DNA from: Comamonadaceae bacterium
GTDB taxonomy: Bacteria; Pseudomonadota; Gammaproteobacteria; Burkholderiales; Burkholderiaceae_C
Assembly: GCA_947447615.1 (NCBI GenBank)
Contig: CANFJQ010000003.1
Coordinates: 1-51,017 of the forward strand
Length of the DNA stretch: 51,017 bases
Direction: 5' to 3'
Position numbers and translations under genes: made by a program. The notes under the pieces were generated by a model. The model had not been told where the DNA came from, searched no databases, and saw nothing but the letters and a program-made list of their open reading frames with translations. This document shows, in pieces, positions 22,408 through 37,876 of this stretch (position 1 is its first letter; each line of letters starts with the position of its first letter).

Positions 22408-23705
22408 GCGCGCATGTCCACCACTTCGCCGGGTAAGGCCAAGGGCTGAATCAGGGGCTCGGGCGCAGGGCGCTCACCCAAGTGCGCCGAAAACGAGCGC
22501 AGGGTCAGACCCGCGTCACCCAAGGTTTTGCGCAGCTCAGCCTGGCCCTGGCGGGCAAAGTCAATCACGGCAGGGCGCACGGCCCACATGGACAAGGCCA
22601 CGCTGTCGCCGCCGAGCAAGTCAGCCTGCAGCCACAGCTCGCCGTAGTCGCGGCTGTTGGAATGCATGTTTACGGTGTAGCGGGATTCTTCGTCTTCATT
22701 CGTGCGTTTGCGCTCAAAGGCCAGCTCCACCGGGGAATGGTCCACAAAGGGAAGTACCACGGTCATGGACATTTCGCCCATGTGCTGCGCCTGCATCGCC
22801 GATAGCTGAGCCGCGTCCAAATCGGCCAGTGCGCGCTTGACCTGGTGCATGCCCGCCGTGTCTTCTTCGGTTTTGTCCTCCATCAGCGACAACAGCTTGT
22901 GCAGCAAAGGCTTAAGGTCGTTGGGCGCCGGGTTGCGGATACGCGGCAAGCTGGTCTCCGAGCCCAGTGCCGCCCTTAGCGCAGCGCTGATCGCCTCGGG
23001 GCTGAGTTTTTCCATGGTCAGACGCATGCCTTGCAACTGGTTTTGCAATTGCGCCTGCACCTCGGGCTGGTTGGCGACCTTGGACAACAAGGCGTCCAGC
23101 CCGCCGGGCTTGAGCAGGTCGCGCACCTCGGGCATGCCGGGGCTGCGGTACATCAGGCTGCCCAGGCGGGAGAACTTGCCCTCGCTGGGGCTGACCGGTG
23201 CCCAGGCCAGGCCCGACAAGGCGCTGGCTTGCACGTTTTGCACCGCCACCACCGGGTTACTTGGCGGGGTGGCCGGGGCGGCCAAGGTCTGCGGATTACG
23301 CTCCTGCGCACGGTCGTTTTGCGCCTGCTGATTGGGTGGGGGCTGGTTGGGTACGGGCCGTGCCTGCGCTTCGATCAAGGTGGGTAGGCCCGGGTTGCTG
23401 TAGGCGCTGGCTTTGCCGTTGATCAGCACCAGGGCGATGCTGCCATCCGGGTTGGCCTGTGTTCTGAAGCTCAGGCGTTGGCCCACTTCCCAGCCTGGTA
23501 CGCGGGCAATGCCCACTTGGCGGCCGCGCAGCATGAGCACCATTTCGTCCGCACGCGATTGCACCGTGGCTTGCACGATCTGGCCGTCGCGCAGATTGAG
23601 GGCGCGGGCGGTTACAGCCTCTACCAGCGTGGGTGAGGCGGGCCCTTGGGGAAAAACCGGGTTGATGCGTACCGGGTTGGCCGACGCATCGCTGACGGGG
23701 ATCAC
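22404..23705 (-). CDS. Second FliK-like protein (hook-length-control C-terminal domain)
   Basis: A 433-residue protein starting with GTG that overlaps the previous stop (GTGA). The N-terminal part (residues about 10-100) has a small beta domain, GQIVQATVQSRADEMVLMLRGRQVGIARVPGWEVGQRLSFR, then Pro/Gln-rich linkers and helices. Residues about 320-415 carry the FliK C-terminal (Flg_hook) fold: MTVVLPFVDHSPVELAFERKR ... YGELWLQADLLGGDSVALSMWAV. A full fliK is present at 43299, so this is a paralogue. With the FlhB-like partner next door it may modulate substrate switching; no function is proven for such pairs in this lineage as far as I know. Confidence 0.8.
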   Translation of the reverse strand: MIPVSDASANPVRINPVFPQGPASPTLVEAVTARALNLRDGQIVQATVQSRADEMVLMLRGRQVGIARVPGWEVGQRLSFRTQANPDGSIALVLINGKASAYSNPGLPTLIEAQARPVPNQPPPNQQAQNDRAQERNPQTLAAPATPPSNPVVAVQNVQASALSGLAWAPVSPSEGKFSRLGSLMYRSPGMPEVRDLLKPGGLDALLSKVANQPEVQAQLQNQLQGMRLTMEKLSPEAISAALRAALGSETSLPRIRNPAPNDLKPLLHKLLSLMEDKTEEDTAGMHQVKRALADLDAAQLSAMQAQHMGEMSMTVVLPFVDHSPVELAFERKRTNEDEESRYTVNMHSNSRDYGELWLQADLLGGDSVALSMWAVRPAVIDFARQGQAELRKTLGDAGLTLRSFSAHLGERPAPEPLIQPLALPGEVVDMRA

Positions 23706-24142
23706 GGGTACGTAACCCAGCGCTTACGCTCTTCGGGCGTGGGCTGGGCCGCACGGGGAGCGGCTTCGCTGGGCGCGGCCACGGGCGTCACACTGGCCAA
23801 TACACCGCGCAGCAGCAGGTCGTGGTCGGGCACATTCAAGGTGGCACCTTTACGCAGCTTGGGCACCTTGCCCGGCACGATGGCTTGCGGATTTTGGTCA
23901 ATGAATGCCTGGCGCAAAATAGCCAAGCTCAGGGGGCTGGAACCCATGGTTTTGGCAATCACCTGGTCTAAGGTTTCGCCCGCTTTTGGCTTGTAGCTTT
24001 GCGCGGCGGGAGCTGGGGCATTGGCAACTGGCTTTGCCGGTGCCGCCTCACTGGCTGCCCAGGCTAAGGGGGCCAAGGCGCAGACAGCAAGCACACATGC
24101 AATGCGTGTGTGCAAGGTTCGCAGGGGCAAAGTAAAAAGCAT
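23702..24142 (-). CDS. FimV-like LysM periplasmic protein
   Basis: A 146-residue protein. Residues 1-30 are a Sec signal peptide (RIACVLAVCALAPLAWAAS). Residues about 50-110 resemble the FimV N-terminal LysM-like domain: YKPKAGETLDQVIAKTMGSSPLSLAILRQAFIDQNPQAI, then GKVPKLRKGATLNVPDHDLL. The C-terminus is Pro/Ala-rich and ends RKRWVTYP. It should bind peptidoglycan. It lies just after flgT and flgP and overlaps the FliK-like gene, so it may help anchor or position the basal body, in the way FimV-type proteins mark the pole. That is inference. Confidence 0.72.
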   Translation of the reverse strand: MLFTLPLRTLHTRIACVLAVCALAPLAWAASEAAPAKPVANAPAPAAQSYKPKAGETLDQVIAKTMGSSPLSLAILRQAFIDQNPQAIVPGKVPKLRKGATLNVPDHDLLLRGVLASVTPVAAPSEAAPRAAQPTPEERKRWVTYP

Positions 24143-24195: not shown

Positions 24196-25401
24196 TTAGC
24201 GTGCGTCCTCGGCAGACCAGGCGGCCCAGCGCGTTTGCACGTTTTGCGCAGGGCCAGCCGTGGGCGTGAGTTGGGCATAGTGCTCGGTCACGTATTGCAC
24301 CTTGGCCATCACGGTCTGTGCGGCATTGCCCGGCTCCAAGACCCGCTGTGGCAGCAAGGCGGCATCGGCTAATACCCAGGTATCGCCAACGCGAACACCA
24401 GAGGCCGCGCCCAAATTAATCCTAAACTGCTTGGCTGCGGTCTGCGTCACTTCACCCGTCACCGTTTGGCAAACCATGGTTTTGTACATCTCCAGGGACG
24501 CGTTTTCGGCAAGCGCCAGAACCTGCGCGCGCGCAGTATTGCTCATTTGGGTGATGCCCCAGTTGCTATCTTGCGCGGCCAGCGTCATGGGGGTATTGAT
24601 CTGCAACACCGGCTTGGTTTGGTTGCGTGCAAACACACGCATTTGCAATTCAATGCGTACCATGGCCGGCATATTGAAGGCCCAGTTGGTGCGTGGCGAG
24701 GAGCGCAGGGCTTCGTCGGCCAGCATGGGCACACGCTCGCCCGGATTAGTCCAGGCCGCATTGGGCTCATCGGATCTCGGTAATCCGACCACCGTCAGTT
24801 CAAGTACCCACGGCAAATCATCGACGCCAGCGCCCAGCAAGGCTTGTTCATAGCCACTGCGGCCTTCGGCGCGAGGCTTGGGTGTGAGGCGCCATAGCGC
24901 ACCTGTGGCGCCCGCGCTGCTTAGCTGCTGGGTCCACAAGCCGCGCAATTGTTCGATCATGTTGTGCTCTTCGGCAGAAAAGCGACCATTGACGTTCCAC
25001 TGCAAGCCCATCAGGTGTTGCAGACGCCCAGGGGCCATGGGTTTGCAGGCCGGGCCACCGGCACTGCTTAGGGCCTTGCCCTGCGCTTTGCCTGCAGCAC
25101 CGCCATACAGTTCCTGCCATTGCAATTTGGCGCTGGCTTCGCCCTCGCTGTCAGTGGTGTATCCCACTACGCGCACACCGCGCACTTCCACATTGGCGCG
25201 AAAACTGCTACTTTCGCGCAATACGCCTTGCCCGTCTATCCATTGCGTGGCGGTGACTTTGGTTGGCCCTTCAAGTGCCGTTTCGACCAGACTTTTGCGG
25301 ATGGCCGCCAGCTTTTCTTCCATACTCAGGTTTTGCGCCCAAGCGCCCATGCTGCTGGTGGTAAGCAGCAGGGTTGTTAACAGGGCGGGGAGGCGGCGCA
25401 T
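24196..25401 (-). CDS. flgT: FlgT-type H-ring protein
   Basis: A 401-residue periplasmic protein with a signal peptide (RRLPALLTTLLLTTSSMGAWAQ). The N-terminal domain (KSLVETALEGPTKVTATQWIDGQGVLRES ... VEVRGVRVVGY) and a C-terminal barrel-like segment (FRINLGAASGVRVGDTWVLADAALLPQR ... AKVQYVTEHYAQLTP) match the layout of FlgT. In Vibrio, FlgT builds the H ring around the LP ring and is needed for motor stability. Its neighbour flgP and nearness to flgAMN copy the Vibrio/Shewanella gene order. The assignment is by layout and motifs, not by a search. Confidence 0.75.
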   Translation of the reverse strand: MRRLPALLTTLLLTTSSMGAWAQNLSMEEKLAAIRKSLVETALEGPTKVTATQWIDGQGVLRESSSFRANVEVRGVRVVGYTTDSEGEASAKLQWQELYGGAAGKAQGKALSSAGGPACKPMAPGRLQHLMGLQWNVNGRFSAEEHNMIEQLRGLWTQQLSSAGATGALWRLTPKPRAEGRSGYEQALLGAGVDDLPWVLELTVVGLPRSDEPNAAWTNPGERVPMLADEALRSSPRTNWAFNMPAMVRIELQMRVFARNQTKPVLQINTPMTLAAQDSNWGITQMSNTARAQVLALAENASLEMYKTMVCQTVTGEVTQTAAKQFRINLGAASGVRVGDTWVLADAALLPQRVLEPGNAAQTVMAKVQYVTEHYAQLTPTAGPAQNVQTRWAAWSAEDAR

Positions 25402-25427: not shown

Positions 25428-25985
25428 TTACCGGCTTTTCGCCGTGAGCTGCGTTAAGTAGAGCATGCGTAAATCTTGCACGGTGCTTTTATCTAAGGTC
25501 AGCGTCGTCTCGTAGGTATCGTCACCGCTGGGCGTGATGCTGACCAGGGTGGCACCATAAATCACGCCTTCCACCTTGCTGCGGAAGGTATCGTTTTGCA
25601 CCACCATGTCAGCCACCGTGGCGGTGGCATCCAGGCGCAGTCCATAGACCTGCTCGGCCAGCGAGCGGTAAGCGTCGAGCTTGGCCGCGCGGATTGCCAT
25701 CAGGCGTTGCTGCGCCGGCGTCTTGTGGTTTTGCACGCTGATGACGGCATAGCCGGTGGCCGTCAGGCTTTCGCGTTTTTCAACCAGGGGCAAATTGGGT
25801 ACCAGTAGTTCACTGGGTACCTTGACCATGGCGGGACGCTCGTTCGTTGCTTTGTCTTGCGTGCCATGGTCGGCCGCGGCCTGGTCCAGTGTGATGCTGC
25901 TCATCAATTTTTGCAAAGGCGCAACTTGGCACGCGCTCAGCGCGATGGCGGTCAGGGCGATAGAGATAAATTTAGTAACTTGCAT
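25428..25985 (-). CDS. flgP: FlgP-type lipoprotein (LPP20 fold)
   Basis: An outer-membrane lipoprotein of about 185 residues. The start MQVTKFISIALTAIALSAC (25985) has AAGGA seven bases upstream and gives a lipobox LSAC. The mature part has the LPP20/FlgP motif: TATGYAVISVQNHKTPAQQRLMAIRAAKLDAYRSLAEQVYGLRLDATATVADM, VKGVIYGA-like VEGVIYGATLVSI. FlgP forms the H ring or basal disc with FlgT/FlgO. The frame is open upstream: an ATG at 26090 overlaps the stop of the Sel1 gene (ATGA) and would add 35 residues before the signal, so translational coupling to that gene is possible. Confidence 0.8.
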   Translation of the reverse strand: MQVTKFISIALTAIALSACQVAPLQKLMSSITLDQAAADHGTQDKATNERPAMVKVPSELLVPNLPLVEKRESLTATGYAVISVQNHKTPAQQRLMAIRAAKLDAYRSLAEQVYGLRLDATATVADMVVQNDTFRSKVEGVIYGATLVSITPSGDDTYETTLTLDKSTVQDLRMLYLTQLTAKSR

Positions 25986-26086
25986 GCTCAATCCTTGTAG
26001 ATGGTCCTTGCATGAATCGGCACAAAACCCCAAAGCTTGAGCTTTTAGGCTCGGTTTGCTGCCCACAGAGCGGGATTGCTTGAAGT

Positions 26087-28702
26087 TCATGCGGCCCGCC
26101 TCATGGCATCGCTGTCGGAAGTGGCCTCGGCCTCGGTCTCCGTGGGGCGAGTCGGCAGCGTGGTGATGGGCGGTGCGCTCAGTTGCGCCGCCGGGGCGGG
26201 AGCCGGGGCCTGGCCGGCCGCTGCGCGGTACCACTGCAAGGCTTGGGCATAGTCCTGCGCCGTGCCCTGCGCGTTGGCGTACATGGAGCCCAAATTAAAT
26301 TGCGCAGCGCCATCGCCTAAAGCAGCGGCCCGCTGGTACCAGGCCAGTGCTTGCGCTGCATCAGCAGGCAGACCTTGCCCAAAAAACTGCATACGCCCCA
26401 GGGTGTAGAGCGCGTCGGTATCGTCTTGCTCGGCGGCTTTATGCAACCAGGGTAGGGCTTGGGTAAAGCTGGTGATCGCGGTGTCGCCGAAGGCCAGGTT
26501 CCAGCCCAGATTGAATTGGGCTTTGGCCACGCCTTGTGCGGCGGCTTGGCGCAGCATTTCCAGCGCCTGCGCTGGATCGCCGCTGCGGCTTTGGTAGAGC
26601 GCCAGGTTAAAGCAGGCCAGCGGGTAATTTTGGGCGGCGGCTTCGCGCAGCCATTGGCCTGCTTGGGCCGCGTTCGCGTCGGCATCGGCGTCTTGCAACA
26701 AGGTAATCGCCAGGTTGTTTTGCGCTTGCGGCATGCCCGCTTGGGCGGCGCGCAGGTAGTGCTGCTGCGCCAGTGCCGCATCGGCCTCGCAACCCAGGCC
26801 ACCGGCGTACTGCAGGCCCAAATTGAAGTCGGCCAAGGGGTCGCCGTGTTCGCTGGCGAGGCGGTAGTTGTCGATCAGGCGCGCATAGTCGGCAACGCTG
26901 GCGCTTTGGTTTGATTGTTGGAGGTTCAGACGCTCTTGCGCCGCTGGGTGCCCTTGGGCTGCGGCCAGTTCCAAATAGGCCAATGCCGCCGTGGCATCGC
27001 AAAGTTCTTGCGGGCCCTCGGCCAGCAAGACTGCAGCTGCGTATTGCGCGGCCACATCGCCGCGCCGTGCGGCCTCGCGGTAGTACTGCAAGGCCTGTGC
27101 TTGGTCTTGTTCCAGGCCGCTGCCGGTGGCGTACATCACGCCCAGGTTGTGCAGCGCGGCAGCGTTTTCCAAGTCCGCGCTGGCTTGGTAAAGCGCGCGC
27201 ACCTGCGGGTCGGCCTTGTCTGTGCTTGCGCGCAGCACGGCCAGGTTGAACATGGCTTCGCTCATGCCCTGGTCGGCGGCGTGCTGCCAGCAGACTTGTG
27301 CCGCGTGCAGGTCTTGCGCCACGCCATGGCCTTGGGCCAGCGCCACGCCCTGGTTAAATTGGGCTGGCCCATGGCCTTGCTGGGCTGCCAGCGCGAAATA
27401 GTCATAGGCCTTGGCCGCGTCTTGCGCGCCGCCTTTGCCTTGGGCGAGTAATAGGCCCAGGTTATGTTGCGCCAGCGTGTCGCCCTGGTCGGCAGCGAGT
27501 TGCAGCCACTGGCGCGCCAGCGTGAAGTCTTGGCTCACGCCCTGGCCTTGGCTGTACATCGCGCCCAAATTGCATTGCGCCATGGCATGCCCCTGGTCGG
27601 CGGCCAGGTGCATCCATTGGCGGGCCTGGGTGCTGTTTTGCGTCACGCCCTGGCCGATGTGGTACATCAACCCGACCTGAAACTGCGCCTGCGCCATACC
27701 GCGTTCGGCGGCCATTTGGTACCACTGCAAAGCCTCGGCATAGTCTTGCGCCACGCCATAGCCGTTGGCGCTGAGCGTGCCCAGGTTGTATTGCGCTTGC
27801 GCATGGCCTAAAGCGGCGGCGGTGCGGTAGTGCACCAGGGCTTGCGCCATGGGGCCGGGAGCGTCTTCATCGTCGTCAGCGCCAGAGCCATCAATCGCGT
27901 CGCGGCCTTCGCTGTTCATCTGGGCTAAAAGCACGGCCAGGTTGTAATGCGCATCGCCATGGCCTTGTTCGGCGGCCAGGGTGAAATAGGACATGGCCAG
28001 CGACAGGTCCGGGGCAATGCCCTGGCCGTGCGCGTACATCAGGCCCAGGTTGTATTGCGCTGGGGCATCGCCCTGGTCGGCGGCTTTGTGGTACCACTTG
28101 GCCGCCAGTTCGGCATCGGGCTCCACGTCTTTGCCTTGTGCCAGCAAGAGGCCTAATTGGAATTGCGCGTAGCTGTGGCCTTGCACGGCGGCAGACTCCA
28201 GCCATTTGCGTGCGCCCACCGTATCTTTGGCAATGCCTTCGCCTTGCAGCAGCATGCTGGCCAGGTTGAATTGGGCGGTGGCGTGGCCTTGCACGGCGGC
28301 GCGCTCGAACCAGTAAGCGGCTTGGGCTGCATCACGTTCCACGCCTTGGCCGTTGGCATACATAAAAGCCAGATTGGTTTGCACATCCGGCAGGCCTTGC
28401 GCAGCGGCCAATTGGTACCAGTGCAGCGCTTGGGCGTGGTCTTGTTCCACGCCCTGGCCGTTGGCGTACATATACCCTAGGTTGTATTGCGCGGGCGCAT
28501 AGTCTTGGGCGGCGGCCAGGCGGTACCACTTCAGCGCTTCCGCATAGTCTTGCGCCACGCCTTGGCCGTTGGCGTACATAAAGCCCAGGTTGTTTTGCGC
28601 GGCGGCGTATTCCAGCGAGGCCAGGGGCCGCGAAATACGCAATGCGTTGGCAAAGTCACCCCGGCGGTAGGCCGCGTCGGCGTCGGCGAGCAGATTTTTC
28701 AT
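26087..28702 (-). CDS. Large Sel1-repeat protein (22 units)
   Basis: An 871-residue soluble protein made almost entirely of Sel1-like repeats of about 36 residues (about 22 units, with AQxNLGxMYANGQGVxxDxxxA as core), with no signal peptide or membrane segment. Units 7, 13 and 15-16 are irregular (inserted acidic GRDAIDGSGADDDEDAPG near unit 7). Such solenoids are scaffolds for protein binding; some act in pole or surface organisation (for example PodJ-like proteins use Sel1 repeats), but no partner can be read here. GGAGG lies nine bases before the ATG. The stop overlaps a possible upstream start of flgP, so it may be co-transcribed with flgP-flgT. The C-terminus (residues 835-871) is Pro/Thr/Glu-rich. 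Confidence 0.85.
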   Translation of the reverse strand: MKNLLADADAAYRRGDFANALRISRPLASLEYAAAQNNLGFMYANGQGVAQDYAEALKWYRLAAAQDYAPAQYNLGYMYANGQGVEQDHAQALHWYQLAAAQGLPDVQTNLAFMYANGQGVERDAAQAAYWFERAAVQGHATAQFNLASMLLQGEGIAKDTVGARKWLESAAVQGHSYAQFQLGLLLAQGKDVEPDAELAAKWYHKAADQGDAPAQYNLGLMYAHGQGIAPDLSLAMSYFTLAAEQGHGDAHYNLAVLLAQMNSEGRDAIDGSGADDDEDAPGPMAQALVHYRTAAALGHAQAQYNLGTLSANGYGVAQDYAEALQWYQMAAERGMAQAQFQVGLMYHIGQGVTQNSTQARQWMHLAADQGHAMAQCNLGAMYSQGQGVSQDFTLARQWLQLAADQGDTLAQHNLGLLLAQGKGGAQDAAKAYDYFALAAQQGHGPAQFNQGVALAQGHGVAQDLHAAQVCWQHAADQGMSEAMFNLAVLRASTDKADPQVRALYQASADLENAAALHNLGVMYATGSGLEQDQAQALQYYREAARRGDVAAQYAAAVLLAEGPQELCDATAALAYLELAAAQGHPAAQERLNLQQSNQSASVADYARLIDNYRLASEHGDPLADFNLGLQYAGGLGCEADAALAQQHYLRAAQAGMPQAQNNLAITLLQDADADANAAQAGQWLREAAAQNYPLACFNLALYQSRSGDPAQALEMLRQAAAQGVAKAQFNLGWNLAFGDTAITSFTQALPWLHKAAEQDDTDALYTLGRMQFFGQGLPADAAQALAWYQRAAALGDGAAQFNLGSMYANAQGTAQDYAQALQWYRAAAGQAPAPAPAAQLSAPPITTLPTRPTETEAEATSDSDAMRRAA

Positions 28703-28763
28703 GCGCGCACTCCCTCCGAATGCGCTAGCGGCGCACAGGCTTGGGGGATGGCGCGGGGCAAAC

Positions 28764-28979
28764 TCATTCCTGGTGTTGGTTCAGCATCGGCAGGGCTTGG
28801 TGCTGTACTGGGTGGGCCTGGTGTTCCACGGCATAGAGTTTTTGCCCGTGCGGCACATGCGCCTGGCGCGAAACCACCAGCGTGGATTCGGCCAGCCATT
28901 GGGTGGACGGGCCGCGCGCAGGATGGGCTGCCGCCTCCAGATGCTGGGCTTGGCTTGGCTGGTGTTTCACCTCGGTCAT
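28764..28979 (-). CDS. Small hypothetical protein
   Basis: A 71-residue His/Gln-rich ORF (QWLAESTLVVSRQAHVPHGQKLYAVEHQAHP). GAGGA lies seven bases before its ATG and it sits alone in the space between two larger genes of the same strand, which favours a real gene. I do not recognise the family and see no signal peptide or membrane segment. A longer 108-residue frame on the same strand (28699-29025) is Pro/Ala/Gly-rich and looks like a shadow. Confidence 0.5.
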   Translation of the reverse strand: MTEVKHQPSQAQHLEAAAHPARGPSTQWLAESTLVVSRQAHVPHGQKLYAVEHQAHPVQHQALPMLNQHQE

Positions 28980-29136
28980 GGCAATTTCCTCGTGCGGCCT
29001 GGCAACAGGCCTTGGCGCTTTTCAATGGTTTTTTTGACGCCCGATGAAGTTACAGGCGCTACATCTGAACGGTTACGCAAGTTTTGTGCCTTAGTAAGCA
29101 CGCTTTTTGGCAGCGGGATGACGCCACAGCCGCGTT

Positions 29137-30609
29137 TTATGACGGCTTTTCCTGCAAGAGTGTCGTGATGTCGTCGCTGCTCAAGTGGTGGATATTGAGC
29201 CCTTGATGCTGCGCCACCAGGCTGGGAAACCAGTGCGCGTCAAAGCGCAAATAGAAGGCGGTGCTCCAGGGCAGGGTGGCTTGCGCGCTCAGGGTGGCCC
29301 AGTTCAGCCGATCGATGTAGGGTGCCAGCAGGTCCTCAGACCAGGCAATAGCCGCGTTGGCGCTCAGGCGCTCCCAGTCCCAATCGTCGGCATGTTGCGC
29401 AAGCAGTGTGTCGCTCCAGGGCAGGGCGCTGCTGCTGCTGGGGCCGCTCCAATCCCAATCGCGGGCGAACTGCGCCAGTAATTCGCCGTCCCAGGGCAGT
29501 CCCGGGTTCCAGCTCAGGCGATCCCAGTCCCATTGGTCTTGCAAGGCTTCCAGCAGCGCTGCGCTCCAAGGCAGGGCCGGGTTTTCGCTCAAGCCGTCCC
29601 AGTCCCAGGCTTGTAGCGGAGAAGGTGGCGTTAGCGGCTGAGGCGCTTGCAGCCAAGCCGGGTCGCTCCATTGCGGCAGCAACGCGGACCAGGGCAGGGA
29701 AGGGTTGCGGCACAGGGCGGCACCATCCCAGCGCTCGGGCCAGGCGCACAATAGCTCCGGGGTCCAGGGCAGGTGCGCGTTGGCGCTTAAAGCGCTCCAG
29801 TCCCACAGCTCGGCATGGCGCGCGATCAGCTCCGGGCTCCAGGGCAATTGCGCCTGCTTGCTCAGGGCCTCCCAGTCCCAATGCGCGGCATAGCGCGTGA
29901 CCAGGGCTTCGTTCCAGCGCAAGCTGGGGTTGGCGCTCAGCCATGTCCATTGCCAGTGCTTGGCAAAGCGCTCGACCAGTGCCGCGTCGCCGGGCAGCGA
30001 GGTGTTGGCGCTCAGGCCGGTCCAGTCCCAGCGGTCCCGGTAGTTTTCTAGCAAGCCCACGGTCCAGGGCAGGCCGGTGTTCCAGCTCAGCGCGGTCCAG
30101 TCCCAGCGGTGGGCATTGGCCTCGATAAATGCGGCCGTCCAGGGCAGTTCGGCGTTGCGGCTGAGCACCGCCCAGTTCCAGCGATACACGAATTGCTCTA
30201 GCAGCGCTTGGCTCCAGGGCAGACCGGGGTTGGTACACAAAGACTGCCAGTTCCAACGATCGGTATAGCGCTCCAGCAAGGCGCCGGACCAGGGCAGGGC
30301 CGGGTTTTTGCTCAGCAGTTCCCAGTCCCAGTCTTCGGCATAGGCCTCTATCAGTTCGTCTGACCATTGCAACACGCGACTGGCGCTGAGCATGCGCCAA
30401 TCCTTGCGTTGGGCCAGTGCCTGCATCAGCGTGCCGTCCAGCGGGTAATGCTGTTGCAGGCAGGCGGCCAAGAGCGCGGGCCGGTCGCGGAAAAATTGCA
30501 GGGCCTGGGTTTCATGCAGCCCGGCCAGGGTGTGGGCCACCATGTCCATGCGCTTGCGCTCTACGGACGTCAGTGCGCCTGCAGCAGGTGAAATTTGTAA
30601 TTGCCCCAT
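29137..30609 (-). CDS. Tryptophan-rich 25-residue tandem repeat protein
   Basis: A 490-residue soluble protein. After about 75 residues it holds 15 tandem units of 25 residues with the pattern (D/N)W-xx-LS-x-N-xx-LPW-S-x-x-L-(L/I)-x9-W, interrupted once by a Pro-rich insert (about residue 330). Each unit has two or three Trp and an acidic turn. No catalytic motif, signal or membrane segment is seen; it should form a solenoid used for binding. I do not know a named family with certainty; short Trp-rich repeats with NPxLxW cores occur in some giant-virus and bacterial proteins (from memory). I start at 30609, two bases after the stop of the J-domain gene; the frame stays open to 30834 inside that gene. 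Confidence 0.78.
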   Translation of the reverse strand: MGQLQISPAAGALTSVERKRMDMVAHTLAGLHETQALQFFRDRPALLAACLQQHYPLDGTLMQALAQRKDWRMLSASRVLQWSDELIEAYAEDWDWELLSKNPALPWSGALLERYTDRWNWQSLCTNPGLPWSQALLEQFVYRWNWAVLSRNAELPWTAAFIEANAHRWDWTALSWNTGLPWTVGLLENYRDRWDWTGLSANTSLPGDAALVERFAKHWQWTWLSANPSLRWNEALVTRYAAHWDWEALSKQAQLPWSPELIARHAELWDWSALSANAHLPWTPELLCAWPERWDGAALCRNPSLPWSALLPQWSDPAWLQAPQPLTPPSPLQAWDWDGLSENPALPWSAALLEALQDQWDWDRLSWNPGLPWDGELLAQFARDWDWSGPSSSSALPWSDTLLAQHADDWDWERLSANAAIAWSEDLLAPYIDRLNWATLSAQATLPWSTAFYLRFDAHWFPSLVAQHQGLNIHHLSSDDITTLLQEKPS

Positions 30610-30611
30610 GC

Positions 30612-31901
30612 TTAGTCTTGCTGAATCTGCGCAGGGTTTTGGATTGCGATCTCTTGCAGCGCTTCGCGGTAGCGCGCCACTTCGGTTTCCAGGTGCTTGG
30701 CCTGCTGCGCAAACCACAAGTCCCAACGACTTTGGCTTACCAGCGTGCGCCAGGTGGCGCTTTGCAAAATCTCGAGGCGCTGCGCCTGTTGCTGCGCCAG
30801 GGTGCTTTGTAGCGCGCTCAGCTCCATCGCCCATTGCGCCGGGGCGCGGCGGGTCGCTGAGGCGGCGCCTGGTGCGCGCGCGCTACTGGCGTCCTGGCCC
30901 AGTTCTAACTGGGCTTGCAGCTTTTGCAGGCCGCGCATATCGCTGGCTTGGTAACTGCGTTGCAGTCGCTGGAACAAAGCCTGCGCATGTTCCTTCTCGG
31001 GGGCCGAGTCCACCCGGTCCGGGTGGCATTGCATGGCCAGTTTGCGGTACAGGCGTTTAAGTTCTTGTTGCGCTTGCAGGTCTAGTTCGGGCGGTGCATC
31101 TAGGTGTTCGTCGTCCGGGTGGCTGTCGGTATAGCGGGTAAAACTCTCCTGGGCTTGCTGCGCTTGGGCCTCGCGCTCGGCGCCGCCAAAGCGCGCATGC
31201 ATCTGCGCCAGGTACTGGCGCTTGAGGTCCAAAAACTCGCGCAGCAAATCGCCAATGGCCGCGTCCTGTTGCCTATCAAAACTTTGCATGCTGCGCTGCA
31301 ATTCATCTAACTCGGCTTGCAACGCCAGGCTGTGGCATTGCAAGAGTTCGCTTTGCCAAGCGGCAGTGCGCGCTTGCAGGTCGGCGCTCAGTACCAAGGC
31401 ATGGCTGCTTGCGGTTTGCGCGATCGTTTCGGCTTCGGCTTCGGCTAGGGCTGCGCCCGGTGGCACCATCGCGTCCAGCCCTTGCAGGCAACGCGCCGCC
31501 AATCCCAAGTCACTTTGCCGCACCACGCCGGCAAAGTCTTCGCGTGCCACGCTGCTTATTTCGGCGATAGCGCCGCTGAGCACCGTATGCCCGTCGACCA
31601 CACACACAGCGGTTTGCAAAATCGGCGCGCTGCTGTCCAGCCAATGCAGTTCGCCACCTGCGGCACTGATGCGTTCCCAAGCGATGGCCGATTGGCGGTT
31701 GGCGGCAGTGTCCGGCACCAAGAGGCGCAGCGCCACGCCGCGTCGCGCCACCTGAAGCAGCAGCTCAAACCAATGGCGGCTGCAGTCGCGCGCCAGCGCG
31801 CACACCACTTGCTGGCGTGCTGCCGCCAAGACCGATTGCGTGGCGCTGGCGGCGTCGGCAAAGTAGGCCTGGTAGTCGGTATCGGTGCTGTCGTCAAACA
31901 T
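30612..31901 (-). CDS. J-domain protein with degenerate phospholipase-D-like N-terminus
   Basis: A 429-residue cytoplasmic protein. Residues about 15-135 look like half of a phospholipase-D-type fold (LLLQVARRGVALRLLVPDT ... AVCVVDGHTVLSGAI) but without the HKD catalytic set. Residues 150-260 are helical, likely coiled coil (LQAELDELQRSMQSFDRQQDAAIGDLLREFLDLKRQYL). Residues about 274-330 are a J domain with helix II LKRLYRKLAMQC, then HPD at 293-295 and helix III EKEHAQALFQRLQRSYQ. The C-terminus is helical. A J domain recruits Hsp70 (DnaK); the rest would choose the client. The next gene starts two bases after its stop, so the Trp-repeat protein is the likely partner. Confidence 0.78.
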   Translation of the reverse strand: MFDDSTDTDYQAYFADAASATQSVLAAARQQVVCALARDCSRHWFELLLQVARRGVALRLLVPDTAANRQSAIAWERISAAGGELHWLDSSAPILQTAVCVVDGHTVLSGAIAEISSVAREDFAGVVRQSDLGLAARCLQGLDAMVPPGAALAEAEAETIAQTASSHALVLSADLQARTAAWQSELLQCHSLALQAELDELQRSMQSFDRQQDAAIGDLLREFLDLKRQYLAQMHARFGGAEREAQAQQAQESFTRYTDSHPDDEHLDAPPELDLQAQQELKRLYRKLAMQCHPDRVDSAPEKEHAQALFQRLQRSYQASDMRGLQKLQAQLELGQDASSARAPGAASATRRAPAQWAMELSALQSTLAQQQAQRLEILQSATWRTLVSQSRWDLWFAQQAKHLETEVARYREALQEIAIQNPAQIQQD

Positions 31902-32071
31902 GGTGGGGCTGGCTTATCCGTGGTCGGGTGGGTAATGCGAACTAGGCGGTAGAGGTGTAAGGACGCAGTGAGAAGAAAAGAGAAGTTAAGGGATACCAAA
32001 GTGGTTCTGTGGGTCGGCTGTAGGGGCTGGCCGCTTTGGCGAATGCCTGCGCTGCAAGCTCGGCGGGCAGC

Positions 32072-33484
32072 CTAGTCAAAGCCCGCAAATTGTTCCGCAA
32101 TGCATTTGCGCGCCAGGTCTTGCGCTTGGGCGATTTGCGCGGGCGTCATTTGCTGGGCCACAAACTCGCGTCCACTGGCCGCTTGTGCATGGCCGCTGAC
32201 CGCGCCCACGTTAAACCACATATGGGCGCGCACATAGTCTTGCAGCACGCCCATGCCATTGGCATACAGCCAACCCAAAGCGGCCTGCGCATCAGCCTGG
32301 CCGCCCTGGGCCGCTTTGCGGTAGCACTGCAAAGCGCGTTGGAAGTCCGGCGCCTGGTCAGCGCCTTCTTGGTAAAGCGCGCCCAGGTTGTACCAGGCCA
32401 GTACGTCGCCCTGGTCGGCGGCCAGTTGCAGCCATTGCATGGCCACGGTGCGGCTTGCCAAGGTGCCCTGGCCGTTGGCAATCATGACGCCCAGGTTGTA
32501 CTGGGCCTGCGCATCACCCTGGTCGGCGGCCAATTGGTACCAGGCCAGCGCCGCCGCATCGTCTTGCGCCACGCCTTGGCCGGTGGCATACATCAGGCCC
32601 AGGTTGAATTGCGCTGCGGCATCGCCTTGCTCGGCGGCTTTTTGGTACCAGTGCAGCGCCTTTTCCGTGTTCAGGTCGGCTCCGCTGCTATAGAGCACAC
32701 CCAGGTTGTACTGCGCTGCCGCGTCGCCCAGCGCGGCGGCGCGTTCGTAGCAGTCCAGCGCTTTTTCCAAGTCTGCCGGCATGCCTTGTCCGTTGGAATA
32801 CAAAAAGCCCAGGTTGAACAAAGCATGCAGATGGTTTTGGGCTGCGGCCAGTTGGTACCAGTGGCAAGCCTGTTTGAGGTCTTGCGCTACGCCATGGCCG
32901 TTGGCATACATCACGCCCATGCCGTACTGGGCTGCGGCGTCCCCGGCGGCCGCGCCGCTCTGGTAGCACTGCAAGGCCAGCCCGAAGTCTTGCGGCACGC
33001 CCTGGCCGTTGGCATACATCACGCCTAAGCCGCGCTGTGCGCTGGTGTCGCCCTGTTCGGCTGCCGCCTGATACCACTTGAGCGCCTGCTGGTAGTCGCG
33101 CGCCGCGCCCTGGCCGTTGGCGTACATCACCGCCAAATTGGTTTGGGCATAGGGCAGGCCTTGTTCGGCGGCAGCCTGGTACCACTTGTGGGCTTGCGCA
33201 AAATCTTGTTGCACGCCCTGGCCGTGGGCATACATCACTGCCAGATTGGACTGGGCCTGCGGCACGCCATGTTCGGCGGCCTGGCGGTAGCAGTCCAGCG
33301 CGCGCGCGAAATCCTGCTCCACCCCAAGGCCTTGGGCGTACATCTGGCCCAGATTGGTGAGGGCGGCAAGTTGCAAATCGGGAGCGAGTTCGGTCACGCC
33401 AGTGTTCTTTGGGTTGGGCACCGGGCCGGGCTGTGCAAAGCCTGCGGCGAAGTGTTCAAGCGGATTATGCAGTTTGCGTACCAA
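32072..33484 (-). CDS. Sel1-repeat protein (11 units)
   Basis: A 470-residue protein with 11 Sel1-like repeats (AQYNLGVMYANGQGVxQDxxxAxxWY) and the common C-terminal cap AHMWFNVGAVSGHAQAASGREFVAQQMTPAQIAQAQDLARKCI. No signal peptide is visible, so it is probably cytoplasmic. The upstream in-frame stop lies just before a TTG at 33484, which has no clear ribosome-binding site; a GTG inside (about residue 22 or 31) may be the real start. It heads the accessory block, 170 bases before the J-domain gene, and diverges from the sigma-54 activator gene. Confidence 0.8.
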   Translation of the reverse strand: MVRKLHNPLEHFAAGFAQPGPVPNPKNTGVTELAPDLQLAALTNLGQMYAQGLGVEQDFARALDCYRQAAEHGVPQAQSNLAVMYAHGQGVQQDFAQAHKWYQAAAEQGLPYAQTNLAVMYANGQGAARDYQQALKWYQAAAEQGDTSAQRGLGVMYANGQGVPQDFGLALQCYQSGAAAGDAAAQYGMGVMYANGHGVAQDLKQACHWYQLAAAQNHLHALFNLGFLYSNGQGMPADLEKALDCYERAAALGDAAAQYNLGVLYSSGADLNTEKALHWYQKAAEQGDAAAQFNLGLMYATGQGVAQDDAAALAWYQLAADQGDAQAQYNLGVMIANGQGTLASRTVAMQWLQLAADQGDVLAWYNLGALYQEGADQAPDFQRALQCYRKAAQGGQADAQAALGWLYANGMGVLQDYVRAHMWFNVGAVSGHAQAASGREFVAQQMTPAQIAQAQDLARKCIAEQFAGFD

Positions 33485-33673: not shown

Positions 33674-34813
33674 ATGTCGCGAAACGCTATCAATTTTATT
33701 GGTGAAAGTGATGCCATCCGGGCCATCCGGGACCTATTGCCCGTGGTGGCGGCATCGAGTTCGACCGTCTTGATTACTGGCGAGAGCGGCACCGGCAAAG
33801 AAATTGTGGCGCGCTCGCTACACGACTTGTCGCACCGGGCCAACGCCAATTTTGTGCCGATTAATTGCGCAGCCATCCCCAAAGATTTGATTGAAAGCGA
33901 GCTGTTTGGCCACCGCAAGGGCGCTTTTACCGGCGCTGTGACCGACCGGGTGGGGCGTTTTGAGCTGGCGCACAATGGCTCGATTTTTCTGGACGAGATC
34001 GGCGACTTGCCGCTGGAATTGCAAGTCAAACTGCTGCGCGTGTTGCAAGAGCGAGTCATCGATCCGGTGGGGGGCACCAAGCCCATTCCCATCGATGTGC
34101 GCGTGATCGCAGCCACGCACCGCGACCTGGAGGCCGAAATCGCCGCCGGGCGTTTCCGCGAAGACTTGTATTACCGCCTGAACGTGCTACCGCTCAATAC
34201 GCCGCCGCTGCGTGAGCGCGCGAGCGATGTGCCCTTGTTGCTGCAATTTTTTGCCAAGCACCACGCCGCCCCCAGCGAAAAACCGATCACCTTTGCGCCG
34301 GACTTTACCTACGCCATGCAGGCCTACCAATGGCCGGGCAATGTGCGGGAGTTGTCCAATTTGATCGATCGCTTCAGCACCTTGTTCGCCGGCCAGTGCT
34401 TGGAGTTGAAAGACTTTTCCAAAAGCCTCTTGCCCAAAGGCATGTTGGCCTATAAAGCCTTGGCAGATTCGGGTGAATTGCCGCAGATCGATCCGGCGCT
34501 GGCTTCGGGCGCTTTTTCCGATGGCCCCACATCAGGCGGATTGTTTGACGAGTTGTCGGATGAAGATGAGGGCGAGCTCGAGGACGAACCCAACCAGGTC
34601 GAGCAAATGACCTTTATGTCCCAGGCCTTGCCGGTGCTGCCGCCCGAAGGTTTGTCCTTGAAACACCGTCTGGCCGAAATCGAGCGCGACCTGATCGCCC
34701 AGGCGCTAAGCCGCACCAATGGCAATGTCTCGCAGACGGCGCGTATCCTGAACGTGCAGCGCACCACGCTGATCGAAAAAATCCAGAAGTTCGGCCTGCG
34801 CGAAGGCGTTTAA
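33674..34813 (+). CDS. Sigma-54-dependent flagellar activator, FleQ/FlrA-like, no receiver domain
   Basis: An AAA+ enhancer-binding protein of 379 residues. Walker A is GESGTGKE (36-43), the sigma-54-contacting loop GAFTGA is intact (83-88), Walker B is SIFLDEIGD (103-111), with the arginine-finger region FREDLYYRLNVLPLNTPPLRER. A Fis-type helix-turn-helix (GNVSQTARILNVQRTTLIEKIQKFG) ends the protein. FleQ and FlrA have an N-terminal FleQ domain of about 120 residues; here the protein begins almost at the AAA+ domain. A long acidic linker (DELSDEDEGELEDEPN, near 295-310) precedes the DNA-binding part. Its place in the flagellar locus and the sigma-54 promoters nearby suggest it is the master regulator. 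Confidence 0.85.
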   Translation: MSRNAINFIGESDAIRAIRDLLPVVAASSSTVLITGESGTGKEIVARSLHDLSHRANANFVPINCAAIPKDLIESELFGHRKGAFTGAVTDRVGRFELAHNGSIFLDEIGDLPLELQVKLLRVLQERVIDPVGGTKPIPIDVRVIAATHRDLEAEIAAGRFREDLYYRLNVLPLNTPPLRERASDVPLLLQFFAKHHAAPSEKPITFAPDFTYAMQAYQWPGNVRELSNLIDRFSTLFAGQCLELKDFSKSLLPKGMLAYKALADSGELPQIDPALASGAFSDGPTSGGLFDELSDEDEGELEDEPNQVEQMTFMSQALPVLPPEGLSLKHRLAEIERDLIAQALSRTNGNVSQTARILNVQRTTLIEKIQKFGLREGV

Positions 34814-34843: not shown

Positions 34844-35887
34844 TTACTGGCCTTCGGGCGTCTTTTGGATGCGCGGGTACTGCACCACTTTTTCCACCGG
34901 CTTTTCAGGTGCTTTGGGCGCAACGCCAGGCGCTGTTGTCCCTGGAGCTGTGGGTTTGACGCTAGCTTCAGCGGCTTTGAGCTGGCGCACTATGGCTTCG
35001 GCTTCTTTGCGCACCGCTGCCGGGTCCGGGCGCGCCGGTGCTGGGGTGCCTACCGAGCGCACTTGGCTGCTCAGGTTGCTAATGGCACTGGCCTGGGCCG
35101 CCAGCTTGCCATCGAGGTCTTTGATGAGCTTGGCGACATCGGGCGCTTTGTCCTTGTCCTTGTCATGGGCGGGCTTGGCGATCGAGTCGGCAGCGGCTTG
35201 CACGCCGCGCATCACTTCGTCCAGGCGCAGTTCAATTTTGGTTTGCGCGCTGATGATGGCGTCTTGCTTGCTGGCCACTTCGCGCAGGGCTTCACCGTGG
35301 CCGGTAAAAAGCTCTATCGATTCGTCCATCGCGATCACCCGCTTGCCGACTGCGATCAGCATGGCGTCCGCCTGGGCCACACGCTGTTGCAGTCGAAAAG
35401 ACATAAAGGCGAACACGCTCATCGCCAGCACCATCAGCAGGCCGAACACGGCCAGCACAATGATGAGGTACATCTTTTGTGCCGAATAGCTTTCGATAAG
35501 CTGGGTGGATGCGCTGTGCATATTGCCTGCCGCTTTGGCCGCCATGCCAGCGGCCCGGTTGGCCAACTCAGCAGAGTCCAGCATGGTGGACTTCATTTCC
35601 GCCATTTCGGCGTCTTGGGTGTCTTGCGCCGGGTGCTCCGCTTCGTGGTGGTCGGCGTGGTGCGTGTCGTGGTGGCCGTCGTCGTGGGCGCCACTGTGCA
35701 GGGCGCCGTTTTCGTTGCCGTGCTCGCCTGCCTGGTGAGATGCTTCAGCGCCAGTTTCCTCGTGCAGCACGGGCTCTGTCGGTTCCTCGTGCGCAGCGGC
35801 ATCGCTGGCTGCGGCAAGTGGTGCGCCGCCGATAGCTTCAATGGCGGAGGCTTCGTCGGGGGTGAGTGCGGTGGGTGTATCGGCCAT
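34844..35887 (-). CDS. Uncharacterised single-pass membrane protein with His-rich segment
   Basis: A 347-residue protein, not a family I recognise. The N-terminal 95 residues are acidic and rich in His (HDDGHHDTHHADHHEAEH, about 68-85). A single membrane helix lies at about 139-163 (MYLIIVLAVFGLLMVLAMSVFAFM). Behind it come heptad-like helices (residues about 165-290) and a Pro/Ala-rich tail ending VVQYPRIQKTPEGQ. The His cluster may bind metal ions; that is a guess. It is the last gene of the fliK-fliL-...-flhB unit, 34 bases after the gene before, so a role in motor or export assembly is likely. Confidence 0.75.
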   Translation of the reverse strand: MADTPTALTPDEASAIEAIGGAPLAAASDAAAHEEPTEPVLHEETGAEASHQAGEHGNENGALHSGAHDDGHHDTHHADHHEAEHPAQDTQDAEMAEMKSTMLDSAELANRAAGMAAKAAGNMHSASTQLIESYSAQKMYLIIVLAVFGLLMVLAMSVFAFMSFRLQQRVAQADAMLIAVGKRVIAMDESIELFTGHGEALREVASKQDAIISAQTKIELRLDEVMRGVQAAADSIAKPAHDKDKDKAPDVAKLIKDLDGKLAAQASAISNLSSQVRSVGTPAPARPDPAAVRKEAEAIVRQLKAAEASVKPTAPGTTAPGVAPKAPEKPVEKVVQYPRIQKTPEGQ

Positions 35888-35921: not shown

Positions 35922-36371
35922 TTAGCCGCCCTTCATGAGCGCATCGAGCGCTTTGAGTTCTTCACGAATCGCGTCGTTTTCAATCTTGAGTTGAATCACG
36001 CGGGCGGGGAAATCCATTTCGACCATTTCTTCGGTTTCAAATTCCACGTCCTCCGCACTGGCCTGGGCGCTTGCGCCGGCAGCGGCCCCGGCCTGGGCAT
36101 CCGGTGCGGTGGATTTGATGGCAACGGTCTTGAGCGCTTTTTTTTCCTGTGGCGGCAACTTGACGATGTTGCTGGCCGCGGCGCTGGCAGTTTGCAAGAG
36201 AATCGTGTTTTCTGGTGCGACTTCTAAGTCTTCATCGGCCATGTTTTCGTCTTTGGCGACGCGCCGGATGTCGGTGCCCACGTGCGCAGATTTGCTCTTG
36301 GCAACATTGCTGCCCTCGGGCATTTCCACATGGTGGGGCGCATGGCTGGGAAAAAATTCTGGTTCACTCAT
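35922..36371 (-). CDS. Uncharacterised small protein of the flhB-linked module
   Basis: A 149-residue soluble protein without signal or membrane segment. The first 70 residues are polar and acidic, the middle is Ala/Gln-rich, and the last 35 (FPARVIQLKIENDAIREELKALDALMKG) should form a coiled coil. It overlaps the SPOR gene by four bases (ATGA), so it is translationally coupled. I do not recognise a family. It could be an adaptor between the two membrane proteins on either side. Confidence 0.72.
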   Translation of the reverse strand: MSEPEFFPSHAPHHVEMPEGSNVAKSKSAHVGTDIRRVAKDENMADEDLEVAPENTILLQTASAAASNIVKLPPQEKKALKTVAIKSTAPDAQAGAAAGASAQASAEDVEFETEEMVEMDFPARVIQLKIENDAIREELKALDALMKGG

Positions 36372-37876
36372 CGCTTGTTCTCCCCGCGCCGCTGGGTGCT
36401 GCTGACCGGGTTGTCCTGCGAGAACTGTTCCTTCATAAAACGCGCCGAGCGGATTTGCGGGTCTTTGGGTACGCCCGGGCTGTCGGCATAGGCGCTGGCT
36501 TCGCCCAGCGAACTGAAAGGTCCAGAAACCACCGAATACTGCAAGGTCGGCATATTGGGCAGGTAGTTAGCCACGATGCGCGCGCGCCGCAAATTGGGGT
36601 GCGCTTGCAGCCAGGTATTGGCCTCGGCATAGCTGGGAACAATGGTGTGCTGGACCAGAAAAGTACCTGCAGGCATTTGACGCACCCAAGCCTGTCCGGC
36701 CTGGTTTTGCGAGATGGTAGCTTCGTCTGGGGCCTTGGCTGCTTCTTTTACTTCTTTGGCTGGCGGCGCTGGTTCAGGTGCGGGCGCAGTGGCCCTGCTG
36801 CGCGTAGTGGTGGAGGGCACAATGGTTTCCACCTCTTCTACTGCTTTGGGCGCCGGGCTTAGATTGCTCGGTGTTGTGGCGGCAACGGGGGCGAGGGGCG
36901 CAACTGCATTGCCATCGGGCGCAGCAGGGGACGGGTTGGATGCCAGGGCAGCGGGGGCGCTGCTGGCTGGAGTGCTTGCAGCCGCCGGGGGATGCGCAGT
37001 GTCGCCACGCAGTAGGTCGCGCAATTCCTGCACTGCTTTATCGCCCGTGGGTATGACTCCATACATCACCGCCACGCCGAATCCGCAGGCCGATAGCAAC
37101 ACGGCTACCAGGCCGGCCCAAAGCCATAGTTTGCGTGCTGGCTTGGCAGCTGGTGTTTCGCTAGCCTCCTCCTGCGTAGCTACCGCTGGTTTGGGCTCTG
37201 ATGGCGCAGCTGCAAGAGGTGGCTCGGCCACCAAGTCGGGCATAGCCATGGGGTGCAGTGGCGGCTTTTTCTGGGGGCCAATTTGGCGCAACAAAGCGCC
37301 CACCACGCCTTCGCGGCCTTGGGCGCGGGCTTGTTCCATTAACAGTTCGGCTTGCTCTGCGGTTGGTGGCTCGATTTCCCAACTCAGTATGCGTCGGCCA
37401 AAAGCGGCCAGCAGTTTTTGCTTTTGGCTGGCGGCGTTAAACAGCATGACCACCCGGATATTGGCGCCAGGGAAATGCTGCACCAGACGCGCCAACAATT
37501 GAATTTCGTTATCGGGTAGGGCACCGGCGTCATGCACGATCCAAATTTTGGGTGGGGCGTTGTGAAACTTGGCGCCCATCGCGTCTTCGATAGAGTAGTC
37601 CTGCAGCACCTCGTTAAAGCGGGTGATCAGCGCGTCGGCACTGGCAGGAAAGCAAACTTCTAAGCCGATATGCGGCGCCGCTTCGCGCAGGCGGGCGACC
37701 AGCAATTTGCCGTAGTGGTCCAAGATCGCGTCAAAGCCGCTGACCAGGGACAGGCTCATATTGTCTTGCACTAGGGCCGACACATAGCCCTCTAGGCGCA
37801 TGCGATCGGCGACCCGGAAAAGCAGCGGCTGCACGCCCGCAATGCTGTCGTCGCCAGGAAATTGAAGTTCGGTCAT
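36368..37876 (-). CDS. AAA-like/membrane/SPOR domain protein (DamX-like layout)
   Basis: A 502-residue protein. Residues about 10-200 resemble an ATPase-like domain of the ExeA/DamX type (PPKIWIVHDAGALPDNEIQLLARLVQHFPGANIRVVMLFNA) but I see no P-loop, so it is probably not an active ATPase. One membrane helix follows at about 251-272, then a Pro/Ala linker and a C-terminal SPOR domain (about 410-495: GTFLVQHTIVPSYAEANTWLQAHPNLRRARIVANYLPNMPTLQYSVVSGPFSSLGEA). SPOR domains bind septal, glycan-denuded peptidoglycan. The start overlaps the flhB stop (ATGA). It may link the flagellar base to the wall or to the young pole; this is inference. Confidence 0.8.
   Translation of the reverse strand: MTELQFPGDDSIAGVQPLLFRVADRMRLEGYVSALVQDNMSLSLVSGFDAILDHYGKLLVARLREAAPHIGLEVCFPASADALITRFNEVLQDYSIEDAMGAKFHNAPPKIWIVHDAGALPDNEIQLLARLVQHFPGANIRVVMLFNAASQKQKLLAAFGRRILSWEIEPPTAEQAELLMEQARAQGREGVVGALLRQIGPQKKPPLHPMAMPDLVAEPPLAAAPSEPKPAVATQEEASETPAAKPARKLWLWAGLVAVLLSACGFGVAVMYGVIPTGDKAVQELRDLLRGDTAHPPAAASTPASSAPAALASNPSPAAPDGNAVAPLAPVAATTPSNLSPAPKAVEEVETIVPSTTTRSRATAPAPEPAPPAKEVKEAAKAPDEATISQNQAGQAWVRQMPAGTFLVQHTIVPSYAEANTWLQAHPNLRRARIVANYLPNMPTLQYSVVSGPFSSLGEASAYADSPGVPKDPQIRSARFMKEQFSQDNPVSSTQRRGENKR

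Follow-up and report, generated by a model that had tools for sequence, protein, structure and literature searches.

What is a J-domain protein, accompanied by a set of repeat solenoids, doing in the middle of a flagellar gene cluster? The question is raised by a 51,017-nt stretch of contig CANFJQ010000003.1 from a Comamonadaceae bacterium (the window, by which we mean the whole of this stretch; the source draft genome comprises 2.94 Mb in 221 contigs and is 86% complete), in which five neighboring genes encode two Sel1-repeat proteins (Sel1A and Sel1B), a J protein, a tryptophan (Trp)-repeat protein and a small His/Gln-rich protein. We propose, at a probability of roughly one half, that this five-gene block serves a flagellar system of polar type (one with a sigma-54 activator and FlhF-like and FlhG-like genes) as a dedicated adaptor module built around a J protein, and that in a wide sense it would bring DnaK to flagellar clients or to the flagellar site. 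The flagellar linkage of the block is well supported, and the chaperone mechanism is a good though provisional inference.

From 33.4 kb down the minus strand, the order of genes in the window is Sel1A, J protein, Trp-repeat protein, His/Gln-rich gene, Sel1B, flgP-like, flgT-like, a further small gene and FliK-like (Table 1). The sigma-54 activator that anchors the comparison has AAA and Fis helix-turn-helix domains, with no receiver domain matched in Pfam, and flrC is our own label for it. We searched 103 genomes of the genus with a profile of the Trp-repeat protein and with the activator (E 1e-110); the nearest named relatives found are three metagenome-assembled genomes (an uncultured beta proteobacterium, a Rhodoferax sp. 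and a Comamonadaceae bacterium), which are counted once unless stated. The activator was present in 41 of the 103 genomes (42 loci, window included) and the Trp-repeat protein in 34, of which 32 also carried the activator, the exceptions being genomes G270 and G260. Sel1A adjoined the activator in 37 of the 42 loci, two others ended at a contig edge before reaching it (L052, L077), and three were block-less. The J and Trp-repeat genes were adjacent, in this order and on one strand, in all 33 loci holding both (five of them cut inside the Trp-repeat gene by the contig end), a regularity that places the block far beyond chance. Sel1B came next in 28/28 loci reaching past the Trp-repeat gene, and flgP in 24/24 reaching past Sel1B (window included). 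This order was kept among relatives in which identity to the window's J protein dropped to about 31%, and within the genus the block was found only with the activator-type flagellar cluster. FlhD belongs to the other widespread type of flagellar master control. It occurred in 48 of the 103 genomes, but of the 41 genomes with the activator only two had it (G256 and G278), and both of these also carried the block. A profile of the J protein (E 1e-15) matched none of 328 other genomes in an incomplete sample of the family, with few candidates scored per genome, and the block therefore looks confined to the genus. An earlier note on this DNA had described the genes as lying on one strand, continuous with flgP-flgT, and had proposed to check whether the J-Trp pair stays beside flgP/flgT across relatives; both the description and the expectation are borne out by these counts. 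Occurrence of the genes at unrelated loci, which it had named as grounds for refutation, was not what we found for the flagellar copies, although a diverged J-Trp pair in G270 (L050) does lie outside a flagellar locus.

Pairwise distances among 14 loci correlated with those of the activator (r = 0.95 for Sel1A, 0.89 for the J protein, 0.91 for the Trp-repeat protein and 0.87 for Sel1B) and with those of FlgT (r = 0.91, 0.96, 0.93 and 0.98, respectively), and none of 2000 permutations reached any observed r. Since the distances track both the activator and FlgT, the block genes descend with the locus. All five are under purifying selection, with ratios of nonsynonymous to synonymous substitution rates (dN/dS) well below 1 in the computed pairs: over six pairs per gene, the ranges were 0.03–0.17 for Sel1A, 0.15–0.34 for the J protein, 0.12–0.32 for the Trp-repeat protein, 0.08–0.21 for Sel1B and 0.02–0.24 for the small gene. 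The most distant pair (dS 0.83 to 1.32) gave the highest ratios. A tree of the activator proteins from all 42 loci (midpoint root; 12 of 39 inner branches well supported) grouped the three block-less loci as one clade among the carriers, so that one change suffices, and a one-step loss of the whole set would be the simplest reading, short of proof. The J and Trp-repeat proteins were unmatched in the three block-less draft genomes (54 to 82% complete), where Sel1A, Sel1B and the small gene were searched for at the locus only. One draft genome (G253) carries two full activator-to-flgT loci including the block, on contigs C2 and C32 (L037, L038); this bacterium may have two flagellar sets, or the bin may be mixed.

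The earlier note had recognized two Sel1 solenoids, a J-domain protein and a 15-unit Trp-repeat protein, with the J and Trp-repeat genes two bases apart, and each of these points holds. The J protein consists of a degenerate domain resembling phospholipase D (PLD; residues ~10–145), long helices (172–260), a J domain with the motif HPDR (~275–320) and C-terminal helices. Pfam DnaJ matched at 31 bits against a curated cut-off of 27.8, which places it in the J-domain family, and HPD was kept in 35/35 aligned homologs, window included (34 flagellar copies and the G270 copy, with the 65-residue fragment L049 left out). AlphaFold modeled the N-terminal alpha/beta domain with confidence, along with a helix of 67 residues, the J hairpin and helices at the C terminus, with a mean predicted local distance difference test score (pLDDT) of 80.7 and a predicted template modeling score of 0.64. 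A Foldseek search with the N-terminal domain found the single-motif PLD nuclease Nuc (1byr; TMt 0.70, E 9.3e-05), indicating a PLD fold, and also listed TrmB-type regulators and FAM83B (5lzk, TMt 0.57); Pfam PLDc_2 scored 21.8 against a cut-off of 27. Unlike Nuc, the flagellar copies have a J domain and lack the catalytic Lys. The HxKx4D motif is broken in them, in that none of the 34 kept the Lys, 13 kept the His (21 lost it) and all 34 kept the Asp, and the full motif is present in the non-flagellar G270 copy. The pattern of residues suggests that the flagellar form is domesticated and probably non-catalytic. A similar N-terminal fold is seen in the FAM83 (DUF1669; Pfam name SACK1) scaffolds, which anchor the kinase CK1; the partner in the block would presumably be DnaK instead.

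The 490 residues of the Trp-repeat protein include 48 Trp. Its 15 regular units mostly follow one another at intervals of 25 residues and are each modeled as two short helices of a helical solenoid (pLDDT 90.9). No solved structure matched this model well. Foldseek against BFVD found 40 predicted viral structures with an E-value of at most 0.001, their TM-scores being modest; six are named as the tryptophan repeat gene family of entomopoxviruses (e.g. Q9YVN7, E 2.2e-14; TM-score 0.31–0.33), and unnamed proteins from giant viruses and from Bacillus phage G are also among the 40. As modeled, the protein can be classed with the tryptophan repeat family in the sense of a Trp-rich helical solenoid, a likeness of fold and repeat that need not mean common descent. 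Unlike the entomopoxvirus genes, the gene in the block is bacterial and chromosomal and is coupled to a J-protein gene within a flagellar locus; no stated function for the viral family was found in the portions of the sources available. Sequence searches found relatives on four plasmids and, by tblastn, in two large phages, and the PHROG match is phrog_3532 (phage relatives). On a Hymenobacter plasmid (NZ_CP043645; L009:3118-8193), a protein annotated as DarT ssDNA ADP-ribosyltransferase family includes a Trp-repeat stretch, and the Salinibacter plasmid pSR116 (L007) has eight Trp-repeat matches, the best of them among helicase, nuclease and ankyrin-repeat genes.

Both Sel1 proteins are Sel1-repeat proteins by Pfam, with scores over the cut-off (435 and 319 bits) and 18 and 11 matching stretches. 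We rejected a MotX identity for them, as NCBIfam scores were 152.3 and 103.1 bits against 330, reflecting shared repeats only, and no export signal was seen. In a simple hydropathy scan, the block proteins showed no transmembrane segment and no signal peptide or other export signal; the largest 19-residue hydropathy was 1.38 for the J protein, 0.78 for Sel1A and 0.84 for Sel1B, compared with 2.77 for FlhB. Because no such segment or signal was found by hydropathy, the module is most likely cytoplasmic.

The fifth gene (28764-28979) had been overlooked in the earlier description, which correctly listed the other four. Filtering by composition and a short motif, we found a His/Gln-rich open reading frame in 29 of 31 gaps between the Trp-repeat gene and Sel1B. 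The two gaps without it (L005 and L032) belong to one genome, and two of the 29 (L006 and L063) to one other, giving 28 of 29 distinct gaps; a 30-residue remnant of the frame is visible in L005/L032. The frames of L042 and L048 resemble the others chiefly in composition. The gene is easily missed, because a longest-frame rule selects another frame in 5 of 27 such gaps, window included. Its dN/dS was 0.023, 0.029 and 0.052 against three close relatives and 0.036, 0.115 and 0.238 in three other pairs. No Pfam or PHROG family matched. The frame very probably encodes a real protein.

Relatives outside the flagellar locus bear on where the block came from. In G270 (L050:8768-11678), a diverged PLD-J and Trp-repeat pair sits beside ssb and YhgA-like genes, away from the flagellar genes considered here, and G260 has a diverged Trp-repeat protein with no J match in that genome. 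The G270 pair gave weak PADLOC matches to DrmC, MkoC and LmuB (best E 2.7e-06). With PADLOC 2.0.0, in a scan that left out the Sel1 and small proteins, the window's P0001 (the J protein) and P0002 matched no family at E 0.01 (best E 0.049 for P0001; none at E 0.1 for P0002). A Trp-repeat search of 250 family genomes returned its own copy and one weak match with internal stops (G044); the L050 J protein found one match among 349 genomes of the order (E 1e-20), in G433 and to the PLD part only, and the L050 Trp-repeat protein found only itself among 398 genomes of the phylum (E 1e-8). No second J-Trp pair was found on searching the Trp-repeat protein in phages and plasmids, the L050 J protein in plasmids and both in IMG/VR, with the L050 J protein not searched in phages and the window's J protein in neither phages nor plasmids. 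Four of ten plasmid records with a PLD match were opened (H7-H10), and no Trp-repeat product name was among them. In G433 (L058:3-1952), a PLD-like protein with an intact motif is followed directly by a gene that looks kinase-like by eye. PLD parts seem to pair with varied partners. The flagellar J-Trp pair probably derived from an accessory-genome nuclease-J/Trp pair that would have lost its catalytic residue and then entered the flagellar cluster, the direction of this change being our interpretation.

J proteins tell DnaK where to act, and few dedicated J proteins tied to flagella are known to us. In the mechanism that we favor, the J domain would recruit DnaK, the former nuclease-fold PLD domain would serve as an inert docking platform, and the J protein, together with the Trp-repeat solenoid, both Sel1 solenoids and the small His/Gln-rich protein, would hold clients, so that DnaK could act at the flagellar site. 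The PLD fold and the three solenoids are candidate binding surfaces, and the likeliest client would be either a flagellar protein that awaits export or a factor of polar assembly. Two routes fit, namely the holding of substrates before export and the control of flagellar site and number; for the first there is precedent in Pseudomonas, where DnaK is reported, in the part of the source available, to be needed for FliC export (PMC11816700), and for the second in SflA. The AtcJ operon is a further precedent for such a module (both are described below). A more specific and more tentative possibility is that a nuclease-J/Trp pair from the mobile pool, of a repeat family that our searches met mainly in large viruses, was tamed. 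In this scenario the pair would have given up its catalytic residue, acquired two Sel1 solenoids and a His/Gln microprotein as partners, and turned into an organizer of a polar flagellum that recruits DnaK, an undescribed kind of flagellar accessory machine. In the open-access literature, judged by titles and abstract openings, we found no paper on this gene block, and its known kinds of part are not found described there in combination.

Several observations weigh against our proposal. Three loci (L053-L055) have flgP next to the activator (flrC-flgP-flgT) with no block gene between, and because they keep the flagellar cluster without it, the block is dispensable in one clade. Adjacency is by itself no proof of function. 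The ancestral role was probably non-flagellar, given the G270 pair and the J-less G260 protein outside the flagellar locus. Finally, hook size is not tied to the block, since the block-less G274 has a FlgE of at least 901 residues, and we rejected a giant hook as the client on this ground. FlgE and FlgK are unusually long in the window (1303 and 1184 residues), and as natural hard clients they are only a lead: FlgE spans 909–1310 residues in the window and 11 of 12 carrier stretches fetched (none is shown in the twelfth, L096), and FlgK 928–1184 in the window and 9 of 12 (928–1116 in relatives; at least 1101 in L092, where the stretch cuts it). The earlier idea of a chaperone/scaffold system for flagellar or polar assembly is partly supported: it stands in its flagellar linkage, but the block is not essential to the cluster, and the chaperone and polar steps are extrapolation.

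The alternative that survives best, which we nonetheless consider unlikely, is spatial or negative control like that of SflA, in which the block, through its J domain, would stop flagellar initiation off the pole with FlhF/FlhG and would fold no export client. As described in the available portion of the source, SflA has a Sel1-like (TPR/Sel1-like) fold and a J domain, is able to localize to the pole and, in Vibrio with neither flhF nor flhG, suppresses lateral flagella (PMC7226244), so that the earlier statement that none of these proteins is a known flagellar part needs qualification. FlhF-like and FlhG-like genes in the window fit such control, and just as one clade lives without the block, deletion of sflA from the wild type left flagellation unaffected (PMC7226244). 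SflA, however, is a single-pass membrane protein with periplasmic repeats, encoded as one protein outside the flagellar cluster, with no PLD or Trp-repeat part mentioned in the text available (PMC7226244), whereas the block comprises separate, apparently cytoplasmic proteins inside the cluster, none with a transmembrane segment. A DnaK partner network for some other function (e.g. stress or cold), its flagellar position being historical, is quite improbable. It would resemble AtcJABC of Shewanella, whose dedicated J protein supports growth at low temperature and is encoded in one operon with partners that have no known domains; AtcJ differs in being short, with a 21-residue tail, according to the part of the source available (PMC6715715). 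Against this stands the presence of the activator-type cluster in 32 of the 34 Trp-positive genomes, the other two having diverged copies outside the block. Least probable of all is a resident anti-phage or selfish cassette of PLD nuclease-J and Trp-repeat proteins, perhaps directed at flagellum-binding phages, which would suit the G270 pair with its intact motif, ssb and YhgA-like neighbors and weak PADLOC matches, as well as the plasmid and phage relatives, but is opposed by the loss of the catalytic Lys in 34/34 flagellar copies, by an order and place kept over deep divergence, unlike cassettes that turn over, and by the lack of any PADLOC family for P0001 and P0002 at E 0.01.

Other genes tested in the window are mostly flagellar (FliD, flagellin, FlgK, FlgI, FlgE, FlgA, FlhB, FliR, FliP, FliM, a second FliK and FlhA). 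An FlhF-like gene reached 130 bits where the curated cut-off for FlhF is 174; the MinD/ParA-type gene next to it was taken for FlhG. Between the activator and flhB, three minus-strand genes (34844-35887, 35922-36371 and 36368-37876) had no Pfam match; two have a likely membrane segment, and the last is kept in relatives L004-L006.

Table 1. Features of the window discussed in the text.
Feature	Position	Strand	Basis
FlgK, 1184 aa	4660-8214	-	
FlgE hook protein, 1303 aa	12467-16378	-	
FliK-like gene	22404-23705	-	just under Pfam cut-off
Small gene between flgT-like and FliK-like genes	23702-24142	-	
flgT-like protein	24196-25401	-	Pfam FlgT_C 22.7 bits, below cut-off 27
flgP-like lipoprotein (LPP20 family)	25428-25985	-	Pfam LPP20 36 bits on longer frame 25428-26138; start at lipoprotein signal
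Sel1B, 871 aa Sel1-repeat solenoid	26087-28702	-	Pfam Sel1 435.1 bits
His/Gln-rich small protein, 71 aa (71 codons)	28764-28979	-	open reading frame in gaps and dN/dS
Trp-repeat protein, 490 aa, 15 regular units	29137-30609	-	repeat pattern, model pLDDT 90.9
J protein, 429 aa	30612-31901	-	Pfam DnaJ 31 bits, PLDc_2 21.8 bits (below cut-off), model, Foldseek, alignments
Sel1A, 441 aa Sel1-repeat solenoid	32072-33397	-	Pfam Sel1 318.8 bits on longer frame; GTG start proposed from homologs
Promoter-like element TGGTACGCAAACTGCATAAT, upstream of Sel1A	33464-33483	-	sigma-54-like in part of loci; GCATAA core wider
Sigma-54 activator (label flrC), divergent neighbor and synteny anchor	33674-34813	+	Pfam Sigma54_activat 239 bits, HTH_8

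The limits of some genes required revision. The J and Trp-repeat genes, two bases apart in the window, overlap in several of its more distant relatives, by 4 to 8 bases. The earlier note had the Sel1B stop overlapping a possible flgP start, and an extended start at ATG 26090 does overlap it; however, a lipoprotein signal, MQVTKFISIALTAIALSAC, begins at ATG 25985, and a comparable signal opens flgP in the three block-less relatives (DNA inspected by eye). ATG 25985 is, on this evidence, more likely the flgP start than ATG 26090, and because the signal starts there, translational coupling of Sel1B and flgP is doubtful. The start previously given for Sel1A, TTG 33484, is probably wrong; it overlaps the conserved promoter-like element at 33464-33483, and in three relatives the alignment begins only near residue 19, for which reasons GTG 33397 is the likelier start.

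Upstream of Sel1A, a strict sigma-54-like pattern occurred in 15 of the 37 block loci and GCATAA in 35 of 37. The background elsewhere in eight of these loci was 0.117 per 330 bases, or about 4 of 37 expected if loci were independent. We rejected this element as proof of flagellar control by sigma-54, as the 15 fits come from related loci, where they occupy a single place and are almost identical in sequence, and the conserved core GCATAA could equally be a sigma-70 minus-10 box. The window match lies at 33468-33483, for a pattern chosen after the site was seen, and a looser scan of the window gave 21 matches against 17.5 expected. An exact sigma-54 consensus, TGGCACGNNNNTTGCW, lies at 43473-43488 on the minus strand, close to the second fliK gene's 3' end.

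The conservation of the block within the flagellar cluster points to a so far undescribed accessory system that would help to build or position the flagellum. The path suggested for the J-Trp pair indicates that a nuclease module of the accessory genome may turn into a scaffold. With a J protein locked into a flagellar cluster beside four partner genes, and a clade that naturally lacks the block, a role of Hsp70 in flagellar export or placement becomes directly testable in these bacteria.

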